A stretch of 64,000 bases of DNA from Burkholderiales bacterium RIFCSPLOWO2_12_FULL_65_40 (GTDB lineage Bacteria > Pseudomonadota > Gammaproteobacteria > Burkholderiales > Burkholderiaceae_C), in the NCBI GenBank assembly GCA_001770955.1, contig MESL01000054.1:1-64000 (forward strand), written 5' to 3'. This document shows, one piece after another, positions 4,195-56,398 of this stretch. A model generated the notes under the pieces. That model had not been told where the DNA came from. It made no database searches and was given only the letters and a program-made list of their open reading frames with translations. The position numbers and the translations under genes were made by a program. Position 1 is the stretch's first letter, and every line of letters starts with the position of its first letter.

Positions 4195-5271
4195 TCAGAG
4201 ATACACGCGCATGTGCTGCGCCGGTGCATGCAGCTGGACCGTGTGGCCGGGCGTCGGAACGGCATGGTGGTTGAGCGAGAGCTTGACCATGACCTCGGCC
4301 TCGCTGGCCATCTTGCAGCGCAGGCGCAGGTGGTCGCCGAAATAGATCACGTCCATCACGGTGCCGCTCAGGGTGTTGCCACTCTCGCCATCGGCGAGTT
4401 GGATGCGCTCGGGGCGCACGCTGCACTGCACCGCATCGCCCACCGTGGCGCGGTTGACATTGAGGCCGCGCAGGCGGGTGCCGTCCTTCAGTGCCACCAC
4501 GCATTCCTCGCCGTCGGTGGCGTGGACCTTGGCTTCGAGCACCGCGTTGTCGCCCACGAAATTGGCAACGAAGCGGTTGGTCGGGGTCTCGTAGAGCCGG
4601 TCCACGCGGTCGATCTGCTGGATGCGGCCGTCGTTGAATACCGCCACGCGGTCGGACATGGTCAGTGCCTCGGACTGGTCGTGTGTGACGTACACAAACG
4701 TCACGCCCAGGCGGCGGTGCAGCGCCTTGAGCTCGATCTGCATGTGCTCGCGCAGCTGCTTGTCGAGCGCGCCCAGCGGCTCGTCCATCAGCACGAGCTG
4801 GGGGTCGAACACCAGGGCGCGCGCCAGGGCCACGCGCTGTTGCTGGCCGCCCGACATCTGCGCCGGGTAGCGCATGCCCATGGTGTCCATCTGCACCATC
4901 TCCAGCGCGCGCGCCACCTTGGCCTCGCGCTCGGCCTGGGGGAGCTTGCGCACGCGCAGCGGGTAGGCGATGTTCTCGGCCACCGTCATGTGCGGGAACA
5001 GGGCGTAGTTCTGGAAAACCATGCCGAAGTTGCGCTTGTGCGGCGGAGTGCGCGTGATGGGCACGCCGTTGAGACTGATCTCACCGGCCGTGGGGGACTC
5101 GAACCCGGCGAGCATCATCAGCGTGGTGGTCTTGCCCGAACCCGAGGGGCCCAGCAGCGACAGGAACTCACCGCGCTGGATGTCCAGGTTCAGGTCACGC
5201 ACCACCAGGCTGGTGCCGTCGTAGGTCTTTTGCACCCCTCGAAACGTTACGAGTGCGTCGTTTGCGGTCAT
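4195..5271 (-). CDS. ABC transporter ATP-binding protein, PotA-like
   Basis: Walker A GPSGSGKTT, signature MSGGQQQRVALARAL, Walker B LVLMDEP, C-terminal TOBE-like region. Confidence 0.92.
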   Translation of the reverse strand: MTANDALVTFRGVQKTYDGTSLVVRDLNLDIQRGEFLSLLGPSGSGKTTTLMMLAGFESPTAGEISLNGVPITRTPPHKRNFGMVFQNYALFPHMTVAENIAYPLRVRKLPQAEREAKVARALEMVQMDTMGMRYPAQMSGGQQQRVALARALVFDPQLVLMDEPLGALDKQLREHMQIELKALHRRLGVTFVYVTHDQSEALTMSDRVAVFNDGRIQQIDRVDRLYETPTNRFVANFVGDNAVLEAKVHATDGEECVVALKDGTRLRGLNVNRATVGDAVQCSVRPERIQLADGESGNTLSGTVMDVIYFGDHLRLRCKMASEAEVMVKLSLNHHAVPTPGHTVQLHAPAQHMRVYL

Positions 5272-7020: not shown

Positions 7021-8412
7021 ATGTTTTCTTTGAATCCCCAAGCGTCGACGCCGCTGGTTCTCCAGGTTGTGGAGGGCTTCCGGCAACTGGTCGAAGACGG
7101 CACGTTGCGTGCAGGAGCCAAGCTGCCGTCGATACGGCAGTTTGCCCATGCCCATGGCGTGAGCGTTTACACGGTGGTTGATGCCTATGACCGCCTGGTG
7201 GCCCAAGGCTATTTTGTCTCGCGCCCCCATTCGGGTTTCTTCGTGCGGCGGCGGGCCGACACCGCGCTGGAGGCGCCCGGGCCGGCGGGTCAGTACAGCT
7301 TCGACTCGATGTGGTACATGCAGCGCATCTTCGAGAACCGTGCGCTGCGCCTCAAGCCCGGCTGTGGCTGGCTGCCGGGTGACTGGCTGTTCTCCGAAGG
7401 GGTGCGGCGCGGCTTGCGCGCGCTGGCCGCCGAAGAAGTGGACCTGGGCGGCTACGGCGAGCCCAAGGGTTACCTGCCGCTGCGCCAGCTGGTGCGCGAC
7501 CTGCTGGCCGAGCACGAGGTGGTGGTCACGGCCGAGCAGGTGCTGCTGACCCAGGGCTCCAGCCAGGCAATGGACCTGGTGGCCCGGCAGCTGGTGCGCG
7601 CCGGCGATGCCGTGCTGGTGGACGAACCGGGCTATGCCAATCTGCTGTCGGCGCTGCGCTTTCTGGGCGCACGGCTGGTGGGCGCCCCCCGCACGGCCAA
7701 CGGCTACGACCTGGACCTCCTGGAGGCGCGCATCCAGGAACACCGCCCCAAGGTGTTCTTCACCCAGCCCCGGTTGCAAAGCCCGACCGGCTCGACGGCC
7801 CAGGTGGCGCATCTGTACCGCCTGCTGCAACTGGCGGAGAAGTACGATTTCGTGGTGGTGGAGAACGATATTTATGTCGATCTGGACCCCGAACCGCGCC
7901 CCACGCTGGCCAGCCTGGACCAGTTGCGCCGTGTGGTCTATATCAGCAGCTTCTCGAAGACCATCTCGCCCAACATCCGCGTGGGTTACCTGGCCGCGCA
8001 CCCCGACCTGCTTGAAGAACTGGCGCGGCTCAAGATGATCTCGGGCCTGACTTCGTCGGAATTCACCGAGCGCCTGGCCTATGGTGCCTTGCTCGATGGC
8101 CGCTGGCGCAAGCACACCAAGGCCTTGCGCGACCGCCTGGCGGTCGCACAGCAGCGTGTCGCATCCAGCTTGCTGGACCTGGGCTTCGAGCTGTTTGTCG
8201 AGCCCAAGGCCGGCATGCTGCAGTGGGCGCGCCACCCGGCCATCGAAAACTCCAGTGAGCTGGCCTACAAGGCAGCCGAGCAGGACATCCTGCTCGGGCC
8301 TGGCCACCTGTTTATGCTCGACCTGCAGCCCAGCCCCTGGCTGCGTTTCAACGTGGCGCACTGCCAGGACGAAACCGTGTTCGCATTCCTGCGCAGCCAG
8401 ACGACGGGCTGA
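7021..8412 (+). CDS. MocR/GabR-type regulator (GntR HTH fused to a PLP aminotransferase-like domain)
   Basis: N-terminal wHTH (LRAGAKLPSIRQFAHAHGVSVYTVVDAYDRLVAQGYFVSRPHSGFFV), C-terminal class I aminotransferase fold (YISSFSKTISPNIRVGYLAA); divergent from gabT. Confidence 0.9.
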   Translation: MFSLNPQASTPLVLQVVEGFRQLVEDGTLRAGAKLPSIRQFAHAHGVSVYTVVDAYDRLVAQGYFVSRPHSGFFVRRRADTALEAPGPAGQYSFDSMWYMQRIFENRALRLKPGCGWLPGDWLFSEGVRRGLRALAAEEVDLGGYGEPKGYLPLRQLVRDLLAEHEVVVTAEQVLLTQGSSQAMDLVARQLVRAGDAVLVDEPGYANLLSALRFLGARLVGAPRTANGYDLDLLEARIQEHRPKVFFTQPRLQSPTGSTAQVAHLYRLLQLAEKYDFVVVENDIYVDLDPEPRPTLASLDQLRRVVYISSFSKTISPNIRVGYLAAHPDLLEELARLKMISGLTSSEFTERLAYGALLDGRWRKHTKALRDRLAVAQQRVASSLLDLGFELFVEPKAGMLQWARHPAIENSSELAYKAAEQDILLGPGHLFMLDLQPSPWLRFNVAHCQDETVFAFLRSQTTG

Positions 8413-53334: not shown

Positions 53335-53416
53335 CATTCGATCGGATAACTAGGCGGGAGCCGAAGACAGTGCTGTAGCACGGCGAGGTGAACCAACGAC
53401 GTTAGACGGTCGAAGG
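53335..53416. repeat. structured intra-operon repeat, copy 2
   Basis: Core CTAGGCGGGAGCCGAAGACAGTGCTGTAGCACGGCGAGGTGAACCAACGAC aligns to copy 1; the outer arms (ATTCGATCGGATAA / TTAGACGGTCGAAG) differ from copy 1 but still largely pair. Confidence 0.65.
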
Positions 53417-55039
53417 CAAAGCCGTGTCCGCCCATGGTCCGCCGTCCTGCAGTAGCTTTCCGGGGTTCATGATCCCGTGCGGGTCGAAATGGCGGCACAG
53501 CCCGGCCAAGGTCTGCATGCCCAGCGGTCCTTTCTCATCGACCAGGTGCGCGGCATGGTCGCGCCCCACGCCGTGCTGGTGGCTCACGGTGCCGCCGTGC
53601 GCGGCAATCTGCGCGGCCACGGCGCGTTTCAGCTTCTGCCAGCGCTCAAAATTGGGCGCAAAGCCGCCCGCAGCGGTGGGCCAGACGTACTGCGCATAGA
53701 TGCTGCTGCCCTGCGGGTATACGTGCGAGAGGTGGGTGAAGGCATGCACCGGCTCGCCGAAGCTGGCGAACACGTCGCGCGCGGCCTGCTCCATGGCGTG
53801 CATCAGGGGCTTGACCTGGGGCCAGTCCACCGCGGTTTCGATGGTGTCCACGCTGTAGCCCAGGTCCCACAGCGTGTTGCGCAGGTAAGGGCCTTTGAAG
53901 CGGTTGGCCGCCCATTTGCTGCCCATGGCCGGGCCGATATAGACCGCGCCGTGGCGGCCCAGCGTGCGCCGGGCCTCGCGCAGGGCGTGGCGTGCGGTGG
54001 CCGGGTCGGCGGTCACGCCCAGCATCAGCAGGCATTTGCCCTCGCCGCAGCCGCGCCAGGCGAGGTAGCGCTCCATCAGGCCGATCAGGCGCTCGTGGCC
54101 GGCGAGCTGCAGGTTGGTTTCGGTCTCGATGCCGTTGGACAGGCGCAGCATCGACAGCGGCAGGCGCCGCTGCACCAGCGCGCGCACGGCGGCCTCGGCG
54201 CTGTCCCAGTCGGGCAGGAAGAGGGCGTGAAAGCTTTCGTGCCCGGGCAGGGGCGAGACGCGCACCGTGGCCTCGGTGAGGATGCCGAAGCGCCCCTCCG
54301 AGCCGAGCACCAGTTCGCGCAGGTCCGGCCCGGCGCTGGAGGCGGGCAGGGTGGGTAGCACCAACGTGCCCACGGGCGTTTCCATGCGGCCGCCCGCGAA
54401 GAGCTGCTCGATGCGCCCGTAGCGCAGCGACTGCTGGCCGCTCGAGCGCGTGACCACCCAGCCACCCACGGTGGAGTACTCAAACGACTGCGGAAAATGC
54501 CCCAGCGTATAGCCCTGAGCGCGCAACTGGGCCTCTACCTGCGGCCCCGGCGTGCCCGCGCCGAAGGTGGCGAGCTGGCTGGTCTTGTCCAGGTGCAGCA
54601 GCCGGTTCATGCGCGTGAGGTTCACCGAGAGAATGGGCCGCTCGCCCAGCGGGCAGTCGAGGTGCCCGGCCACGCTGGTGCCGCCCGCGAACGGGATCAC
54701 GGTCCAGCGGTTCGCCTGCGCCAGGTCCAGCAGCTCGCGCACCTGCTCGCCCGACTCGGGGAAGGCCACGCCATCGGGCACCGGGGGGAGTTGGCCGAAC
54801 CGCTTCTTGATCCAGTCGGCATAGCTCTCGCCCAGCGCCATGGTCAGGCGCGTCGAGGCATCGCGCTGGATCAGCGGGTGCCCTGGCAGGCGCGAAGCTG
54901 GAATGCCCGCCAGCAGGTCTTCGCGCCGGGCGTCCTGCCCGGGGTATCCCGGCCCGAGGCGCCGGGCCAGCATGGCGCGGGCGCCGTCGCCAAGATTCAT
55001 CGAGGTGGCATCGTCGCCCCAGCCGTTCCATCGCCGCAT
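53402..55039 (-). CDS. FAD-binding oxidase, AGPS (alkyl-DHAP synthase)-like
   Basis: VIPFAGGTSVAGHLDCP ... GHFPQSFEYSTVGGWVVTRSSGQQSLRYGRIEQLFAGGRMETPVG ... GLCRHFDPHGIMNPGKLL. Confidence 0.85.
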   Translation of the reverse strand: MRRWNGWGDDATSMNLGDGARAMLARRLGPGYPGQDARREDLLAGIPASRLPGHPLIQRDASTRLTMALGESYADWIKKRFGQLPPVPDGVAFPESGEQVRELLDLAQANRWTVIPFAGGTSVAGHLDCPLGERPILSVNLTRMNRLLHLDKTSQLATFGAGTPGPQVEAQLRAQGYTLGHFPQSFEYSTVGGWVVTRSSGQQSLRYGRIEQLFAGGRMETPVGTLVLPTLPASSAGPDLRELVLGSEGRFGILTEATVRVSPLPGHESFHALFLPDWDSAEAAVRALVQRRLPLSMLRLSNGIETETNLQLAGHERLIGLMERYLAWRGCGEGKCLLMLGVTADPATARHALREARRTLGRHGAVYIGPAMGSKWAANRFKGPYLRNTLWDLGYSVDTIETAVDWPQVKPLMHAMEQAARDVFASFGEPVHAFTHLSHVYPQGSSIYAQYVWPTAAGGFAPNFERWQKLKRAVAAQIAAHGGTVSHQHGVGRDHAAHLVDEKGPLGMQTLAGLCRHFDPHGIMNPGKLLQDGGPWADTALPSTV

Positions 55040-55064
55040 GAATGCATACTCCCTGTTGGTTTTA

Positions 55065-55331
55065 GAACCTGTTCAAGATCTTTTCATGGGGTACGTTGCC
55101 CCGCAAAGGCTGTGGCTGCAAGGCGCAAACCACAGCCGGGCTGGTGGCCCGGCGAGGATTTGCAACGCCGCGGACGCAGCCTTTGCGGGGCAACCCGAAG
55201 GGCATGGCTCCAAAACCGCCACGCTCGTCGTTGCCCACCTTGCCCATACATGGGTATGGGCGGCGGCGTGCGCCTAGATCGTGGCGGTTTTGAAGCCATG
55301 CGTACCCCATGAAAAGATTTTGAACAGGTTC
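55065..55331. mobile_element. 267-bp MITE-like element with 31-bp TIRs and TTA target duplication
   Basis: GAACCTGTTCAAGATCTTTTCATGGGGTACG (55065-55095) versus CGTACCCCATGAAAAGATTTTGAACAGGTTC (55301-55331), 30/31 complementary; TTA at 55062-55064 and 55332-55334. Confidence 0.8.
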
Positions 55332-55372
55332 TTAGCCACTGTAGGCGCGGGCCGCCCGTTTGCCATTCCGCA

Positions 55373-56398
55373 ATGCCGCCAACCGATTGTTCGATCACGC
55401 CAAAAGCGCCGCCGCCCCGTGTCGTGGCGCCCTATGCGCGCACGCTGTGGGACGCCGCGCGCGCCGAGGGCGTGCCGCAGGTGCTGGGCCGCGAGGCCCC
55501 GGGCGAGGAGGACATGCCCGTGTCCGACTATCTCGCCCTGCTGCAGCAGGCGCTGGCGCACGCGGGGCCGGGCTTTGGCTGGCGCCTGGGGCAGAGTGTC
55601 AAGCCCACCACCTATGGCGTCAACGGCATCCTGCTGTTGGCCTGCCCCACGCTCGGCGAGGCTTTGCAGCAGGTGCTGCGTTTCGAGTCGCTGGTGCACG
55701 ATCTGGGGCGTTCGTCCTTCACGCAGCAGGGCGACACCGTGGAATACGCCTGGCGCAACGACTGCGCGGGCCACCCGGCGGCCGATGCGCTGGCCGAATC
55801 GGTGTTCGCGGGCATCCAGACCTGCGCGCAGTGGCTTGTGGGCCAGCCGATTGCGGGGTTTGAGTTGGAGTTTGCCCACCACCGCGACGAAGCCACCGCG
55901 CAGGCGATTGCCCAGGCCAGCGGGGCGCGCGTGCGCTGGGGCTGCGCCGCGCACCGCGCCGTGTTCCCGGCAGCGCTGTTGGATTGGCCGATTCCCCAGG
56001 CCAACAAGACGCTGCTGCCGCTGTTGCAGCGCCATGCCGACGAGCTGTTGCAGGCGCGCCACCCGCGCGAGGGCGGCATCGTGGCCCAGGTGCGCCAGAG
56101 CATTTCCAACCGGCTGGGGCAGGGCGCCGTGAAGCTGGCCGATGTGGCGCGTGACCTGCACCTGTCCACGCGCACCCTGCAGCGCCGCCTGTTGGACGCT
56201 GGCGTGGCCTACCAGGCGCTGCTCGACGCCACGCGGCACGAGCTGGCCTGCCATTACCTGGCTACGTCGGCCATGCCGATTGCCGAAGTGGGCTACCTGC
56301 TGGGTTATCAGGAGCCCACGGCCTTCCACCATGCCTTCAAGCAGTGGCAGGGCCAGGGGCCGGGGCAGTACCGGGCGCAGACGCGGGCGTCGGGCTGA
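55373..56398 (+). CDS. AraC-family regulator with N-terminal arabinose-binding-type domain
   Basis: LADVARDLHLSTRTLQRRLLDAGVAYQALLDATRHELACHYLATSAMPIAEVGYLLGYQEPTAFHHAFKQWQG. Confidence 0.93.
   Translation: MPPTDCSITPKAPPPRVVAPYARTLWDAARAEGVPQVLGREAPGEEDMPVSDYLALLQQALAHAGPGFGWRLGQSVKPTTYGVNGILLLACPTLGEALQQVLRFESLVHDLGRSSFTQQGDTVEYAWRNDCAGHPAADALAESVFAGIQTCAQWLVGQPIAGFELEFAHHRDEATAQAIAQASGARVRWGCAAHRAVFPAALLDWPIPQANKTLLPLLQRHADELLQARHPREGGIVAQVRQSISNRLGQGAVKLADVARDLHLSTRTLQRRLLDAGVAYQALLDATRHELACHYLATSAMPIAEVGYLLGYQEPTAFHHAFKQWQGQGPGQYRAQTRASG

Follow-up and report, generated by a model that had tools for sequence, protein, structure and literature searches.

A probable IS5-mobilised MITE of Burkholderiales shares a structured core with elements bearing many different ends

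How did a palindromic, gene-less segment come to lie between two divergent genes of a Burkholderiales bacterium, and which part of it is kept where related elements occur? The window, that is, the whole 64,000-nucleotide stretch of DNA that was analysed, carries such a segment between a FAD-oxidase and an AraC gene, and an earlier note on this DNA had read it as a MITE with IS5-type mobilisation. The features of the locus are these:

53402 to 55039, minus strand: gene of a FAD-linked oxidase (PF01565/PF02913); the insertion with its TTA flanks starts 23 bp upstream of the start codon.
55062 to 55334: whole insert with flanks, between the FAD oxidase and AraC genes.
55062 to 55064, no strand: left copy of the target-site duplication TTA (sequence; flanks of related copies).
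55065 to 55331: element proper, 267 bp between the TTA copies.
55065 to 55095, plus strand: left terminal inverted repeat (TIR), GAACCTGTTCAAGATC..., forming the outer stem of the Y (repeat search, fold); its outer part matches the ends of an IS5-family insertion sequence (IS) at locus L224.
55095 to 55194, plus strand: left arm, a hairpin of about 100 nt (repeat search, DNA and RNA folds).
55107 to 55180, plus strand: module M of the left arm, with loops AGGC and GCAACG and covarying helices (covariance model, 81.8 bits, E 8e-19; this copy belongs to the seed of the model, so the score is not independent).
55194 to 55202, no strand: inter-arm mini-hairpin CCCGAAGGG (sequence; pattern CCCnnnGGG).
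55202 to 55301, minus strand: right arm, a hairpin of about 100 nt (repeat search, DNA and RNA folds).
55216 to 55289, minus strand: module M of the right arm, on the opposite strand (covariance model, 63.3 bits, E 1.4e-13).
55301 to 55331, minus strand: right TIR (repeat search).
55332 to 55334, no strand: right copy of the target-site duplication TTA (sequence).
55373 to 56398, plus strand: gene of an AraC-family regulator (PF12625/PF12833), whose start codon lies 38 bp downstream of the end of the insertion.

The earlier note had given TIRs of 31 bp with one mismatch, a TTA duplication and a length of 267 bp; the sequence and a repeat search agree on all three, the search pairing 55064-55095 with 55301-55332 (32 nt, 97%). 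Its inner repeats likewise lie where it had placed them. The left arm is bounded by an inverted repeat at 55095-55119/55170-55194 (88%, the outer 18 bp perfect) and the right arm by one at 55202-55226/55277-55301 (92%), and the hairpin GCCCATAC-ATGG-GTATGGGC is located at 55242-55261. The predicted fold is the outer stem with two branched hairpin arms that had been envisaged, and its stability is far beyond chance: -115.4 kcal/mol as DNA (z -15.2) and -196.5 as RNA (z -16.4), with none of 200 shuffles equally good in either case. Missed at that time was the CCCGAAGGG between the arms, which forms a conserved part of the build. The element is indeed free of transposase: we found no transposase reading frame within the 267 bp, and the open reading frames listed inside it are mechanical.

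A location between divergent genes would also suit a conserved, immobile regulatory region of the FAD-oxidase/AraC pair. However, the orthologous gap lacks the element in seven relatives (L185-L191, identified by AraC orthologues with a divergent FAD-oxidase-like upstream neighbour), and related copies lie elsewhere in the genome. In the closest empty site, that of genome G024 (AraC 97% identical), the sequence is CCCTAGTTGTCGCGCCACTG; at this place the window has CCCTGTTGGTTTTA, the element and TTAGCCACTG. The gap, about 62 bp in G024, is lengthened by the element in the window. These empty sites refute the immobile regulatory region, to which we assign practically no probability. Because seven relatives have the same gap without it, the element is a genuine recent insertion, and would be a non-autonomous element that arrived lately between the two genes. 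The contrary picture named in the earlier note, a single conserved copy without an empty allele, does not hold, since empty sites and other copies both exist. Copies of class A, defined by the ends GARCSTGTT..., number one full copy in the own genome, besides C57 without the right arm and the remnant C31 without the left arm, and full copies are present in relatives. The element stands 7 bp away from a GGGAG that resembles the ribosome-binding site of the FAD-oxidase gene. A simple scan found no promoter-like site inside the element or in the region, and just one terminator-like match, at chance level, in the window region.

Which enzyme may have moved it is indicated by the flanks and the ends. 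A 3-bp duplication of the TNA form is a mark of the IS1031 group within the IS5 family. In a list of 30 class-A copies, compiled by hand, 17 have identical 3-bp flanks, all of the TNA form (TTA, TCA, TGA or TAA), and none of 20000 shuffles reached as many. A full IS with the same TIRs had been proposed as something to look for, and a congener supplies it almost exactly: the IS at L224 921-1766 is 846 bp long, has GAACGTGTTCACGATCT at both ends, nearly identical to the ends of the window element, and lies between TAA and TAA. Its transposase scores over the NCBIfam IS5_3 cut-off; with two overlapping reading frames, it may require a frameshift. Two further end types also have matching IS5-family ISs, assigned, like that of L224, by transposases over NCBIfam cut-offs. 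Class-B elements (GGGCCTGTTAACACTA, flanks YTA...TAR) match an 827-bp IS in L227 and L238 with ends GGGCSTGTTAACACTA, and GAGCGTGTTATGCACT elements (L299) match an 875-bp IS in L221. The own genome, a 94%-complete draft, yielded no IS with the exact ends of the window element; at L345 it carries an IS of the IS5_4 type, whose transposase frame is open and whose GGCAACGCTGATTAAGG ends resemble those of L386. TIR matches without a partner showed no IS ends around them, and several are partial copies.

The empty sites, the identical 3-bp flanks and the congener IS with nearly the same ends thus support the reading as a MITE, together with its TIRs, TTA duplication, multiple copies and lack of a transposase, and the IS5-type mobilisation that the earlier note had proposed is supported as well. 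Mobilisation would have occurred in trans, by an IS5-family transposase of IS5_3 type that makes 3-bp TNA duplications and resembles the IS1031 group. In this the element is like MITEPsy1 of Pseudomonas syringae (PMC3189936) and R0/R2 of P. fluorescens SBW25 (PMC2718517) which, in the accessible parts of these papers, are short and gene-less with IS-matching TIRs and a target duplication, mostly intergenic and apparently moved in trans.

The interior of the element adds a second layer. Each arm carries one copy of a module of about 75 nt, which we call M, one on each strand, facing each other; M has the build stem, loop, stem, loop, variable tip, with near-invariant internal loops between covarying helices. 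Among 47 aligned modules below 88% identity (A1), three helices are supported, 86% of cells are paired, and covariation reaches 0.618, compared with 0.171 in shuffles and no more than 0.20 when the alignment is slid. Since the seeds were selected by the loop letters AGGC..GCAAC, loop invariance in this alignment is circular, and the independent checks are two other sets. The first, 27 elements found by blastn alone, all 264-269 bp long, has the loop letters in 26 of 27 left arms and 26 of 27 right arms, on opposite strands. The second comprises 32 double-arm elements of other families and distant relatives, mostly 262-276 bp long: the second arm has AGGC..GCAAC exactly in 18 and with at most one mismatch in 27 (exact in 0.65% of shuffles), and CCCnnnGGG stands between the arms in 30. 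The double-arm form, about 265-276 bp, thus has a common build of end, arm, CCCnnnGGG, inverted arm and end. Most M copies examined sit in palindromes of one build, and single-arm copies also occur.

Module M is widespread. A strict-pattern search found none in the own genome, since the copies there vary by single letters; the covariance model finds 37. Matches occur in 43 of 61 relatives, many with 26-51 copies. Of 299 genomes from across the Proteobacteria, 59 have matches; at most 16 candidates per genome were scored in this set, so that its copy numbers are lower bounds. Carriers include Acidovorax, Simplicispira, Variovorax, Polaromonas, Roseateles, Ideonella, Piscinibacter and Comamonas, as well as plasmids of Pseudomonas aeruginosa, Azotobacter, Halomonas, Cupriavidus and Martelella, on which M falls outside the listed genes where annotation exists. 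The window element itself has no match in the plasmid and phage collections, but other members of the superfamily do match plasmids.

Several records stand beside this survey. A viral contig of IMG/VR (L183) has M at 4772-4845 and 7205-7278, at least one of them within a palindrome that has a single arm and GGAACCTCTGAACAATTCC ends. A Desulfovibrionaceae-labelled MAG (L070, L170) carries the Burkholderiales form of M, possibly on mis-binned contigs. The small genomes (about 2 Mb) G195, G148 and G152 (L295, L298, L307-L313), of the same phylum and of another class or deeper, hold at least 9-16 copies each, several with AGTGTCCTGTCCC-type ends. In Xylophilus sp. ASV27 and Piscinibacter sakaiensis (L097, L102, L108, L141, L169), M elements stand at the start or end of many contigs, probably where the repeats interrupt short-read assemblies.

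The ends of these elements vary. M is found under more than ten terminal repeats that differ clearly (counted by eye; some have the short start GRGCCTGT in common), six of these end types within the own genome. In Comamonas, the central parts of L159/L171 and L110/L118 are identical nearly letter for letter and their ends are unrelated; in Variovorax, L094 combines class-B ends with a class-A interior and has a core near-identical to that of L154, which bears other ends. From such pairs we infer that ends have been exchanged between elements. Among single-arm elements of the own genome (L379, L381-L385, L387-L389), several with CTGAGAAGGTGTGAATGAATCC or CTGAGAGGCTGAGAGTCTTTC ends also carry M. 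On plasmid pMM593 of Martelella mediterranea (L375 2448-2716), a 269-bp element has ATACCAAGGATCAGTGATTAG ends, unlike the IS5 type, and its mover possibly belongs to another IS family.

We consider it highly probable that the window element is both a MITE moved by IS5-family transposases and a member of a superfamily sharing this core. The kept part of the superfamily would be the Y core, two convergent M hairpins around the CCCnnnGGG mini-hairpin, and the terminal repeats its exchangeable part, with exchange as the putative route. Since the terminal repeats match IS ends where tested, the same core should be movable by different transposases, as a portable structure. In the accessible parts of three papers on bacterial MITEs (PMC10969869, PMC2718517, PMC3189936), every MITE is assigned to a single IS and a common core goes unmentioned; a Y-shaped core common to many unrelated ends therefore sets the present elements apart from MITEPsy1 and R0/R2, by descriptions rather than by sequences.

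Need the interior have any role? An ordinary IS5-derived MITE could hold a roleless leftover palindrome whose compensatory changes arose through hairpin-templated repair. Template switching does correct palindromes, and hairpin-templated repair can also yield compensatory changes; the TIRs, the TNA duplication and the matching IS all suit such an origin, as does the lack of a clear strand bias of M relative to flanking genes (11 versus 7 single-arm copies, by a crude gene caller). Repair should, however, remove mismatched loops, yet the loops are best conserved while the helices diverge: in 77 M sequences below 80% identity, drawn from 135 aligned matches, loop positions are 95-100% conserved and most helix positions 30-70%. 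The same build, moreover, returns under unrelated ends in other classes. We regard a roleless interior as unlikely.

Other observations bear on which strand folds. At paired sites of 40 sequences less than 75% identical, from loci outside model building, G.T pairs number 43 and A.C pairs 7, a count weakened by shared ancestry in that one column supplies 14 of the 43. This excess suggests that the folding strand is the one reading AAGGCGC...GCAACG. M could be a functional RNA spread by the elements, acting within read-through transcripts as a terminator-like signal, a processing site or a place where proteins bind. G.T (G.U in RNA) far above A.C and the covariation of the helices fit an RNA, as does the placement of M between convergent genes in 20 cases versus divergent genes in 7 (crude gene caller). 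Against this, co-directional contexts show no clear strand bias, the sole terminator-like match in the window region is at chance level, and Rfam gave no match at gathering score in 10 M loci and matches of chance level alone at E<=1 in the window. An RNA role is a tentative possibility.

M could instead act as single-stranded DNA, folded into a hairpin that a recombinase, nuclease or binding protein would recognise in the way of REP hairpins or attC sites. The strand asymmetry and the stem, loop, stem, loop, variable tip build would fit; the duplications and ends, however, suit DDE transposition, and Y1 (RAYT-like) transposases occur in M-rich and M-poor congeners alike. We find a DNA hairpin of this kind rather doubtful. 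REPINs and REP doublets with RAYT (PMC3116915, PMC3733652) are similar in that an inverted hairpin pair forms the mobile doublet, single units also occur, copy number is high and location intergenic. M elements differ in units of 75-100 nt, two conserved internal loops, DDE-type TIRs with duplications, and copy numbers that Y1 genes do not track; a RAYT partner was rejected, PF01797 showing no correlation with copy number.

Integron attC sites are strand-specific folded hairpins whose loops are conserved and whose tip varies, and M resembles them, by analogy, in these traits. Unlike attC, M elements lack the RYYYAAC...GTTRRRY end boxes, lie outside cassette arrays and are flanked by TIRs. An attC site was rejected by eye, with GTTRRRY/RYYYAAC boxes absent at the module ends and no cassette array.

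Our best guess is that the fold acts as a single strand, presumably under selection, RNA being somewhat likelier than single-stranded DNA; that the core has such a selected function seems fairly likely. Since the M copies face each other, the first M met by a transcript or strand would be in sense orientation, whichever side it came from. The M superfamily was not found described in Rfam or in the accessible parts of bacterial MITE papers, subscription literature being outside the scope; motif strings matched one paper in the literature as far as its text was available, on gene expression in Desulfovibrio and not on repeats.

In conclusion, the wider proposal is that of a class of mobile elements defined by a structured core rather than by its ends, with ends exchanged across proteobacterial classes and a selected single-strand function; we put it forward as conceivable, somewhat short of probable. 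The usual view of a bacterial MITE is that of a deletion remnant of a single IS, defined by the ends of that IS. Here the ends vary, and the interior is kept across classes, down to loop letters and covariation. Should the core have a function, an undescribed structured motif, RNA or DNA, would be present in many genomes in dozens of intergenic copies that lack annotation (up to about 50 per genome here), and the contribution of non-autonomous elements to their own spread would become testable with a small construct.
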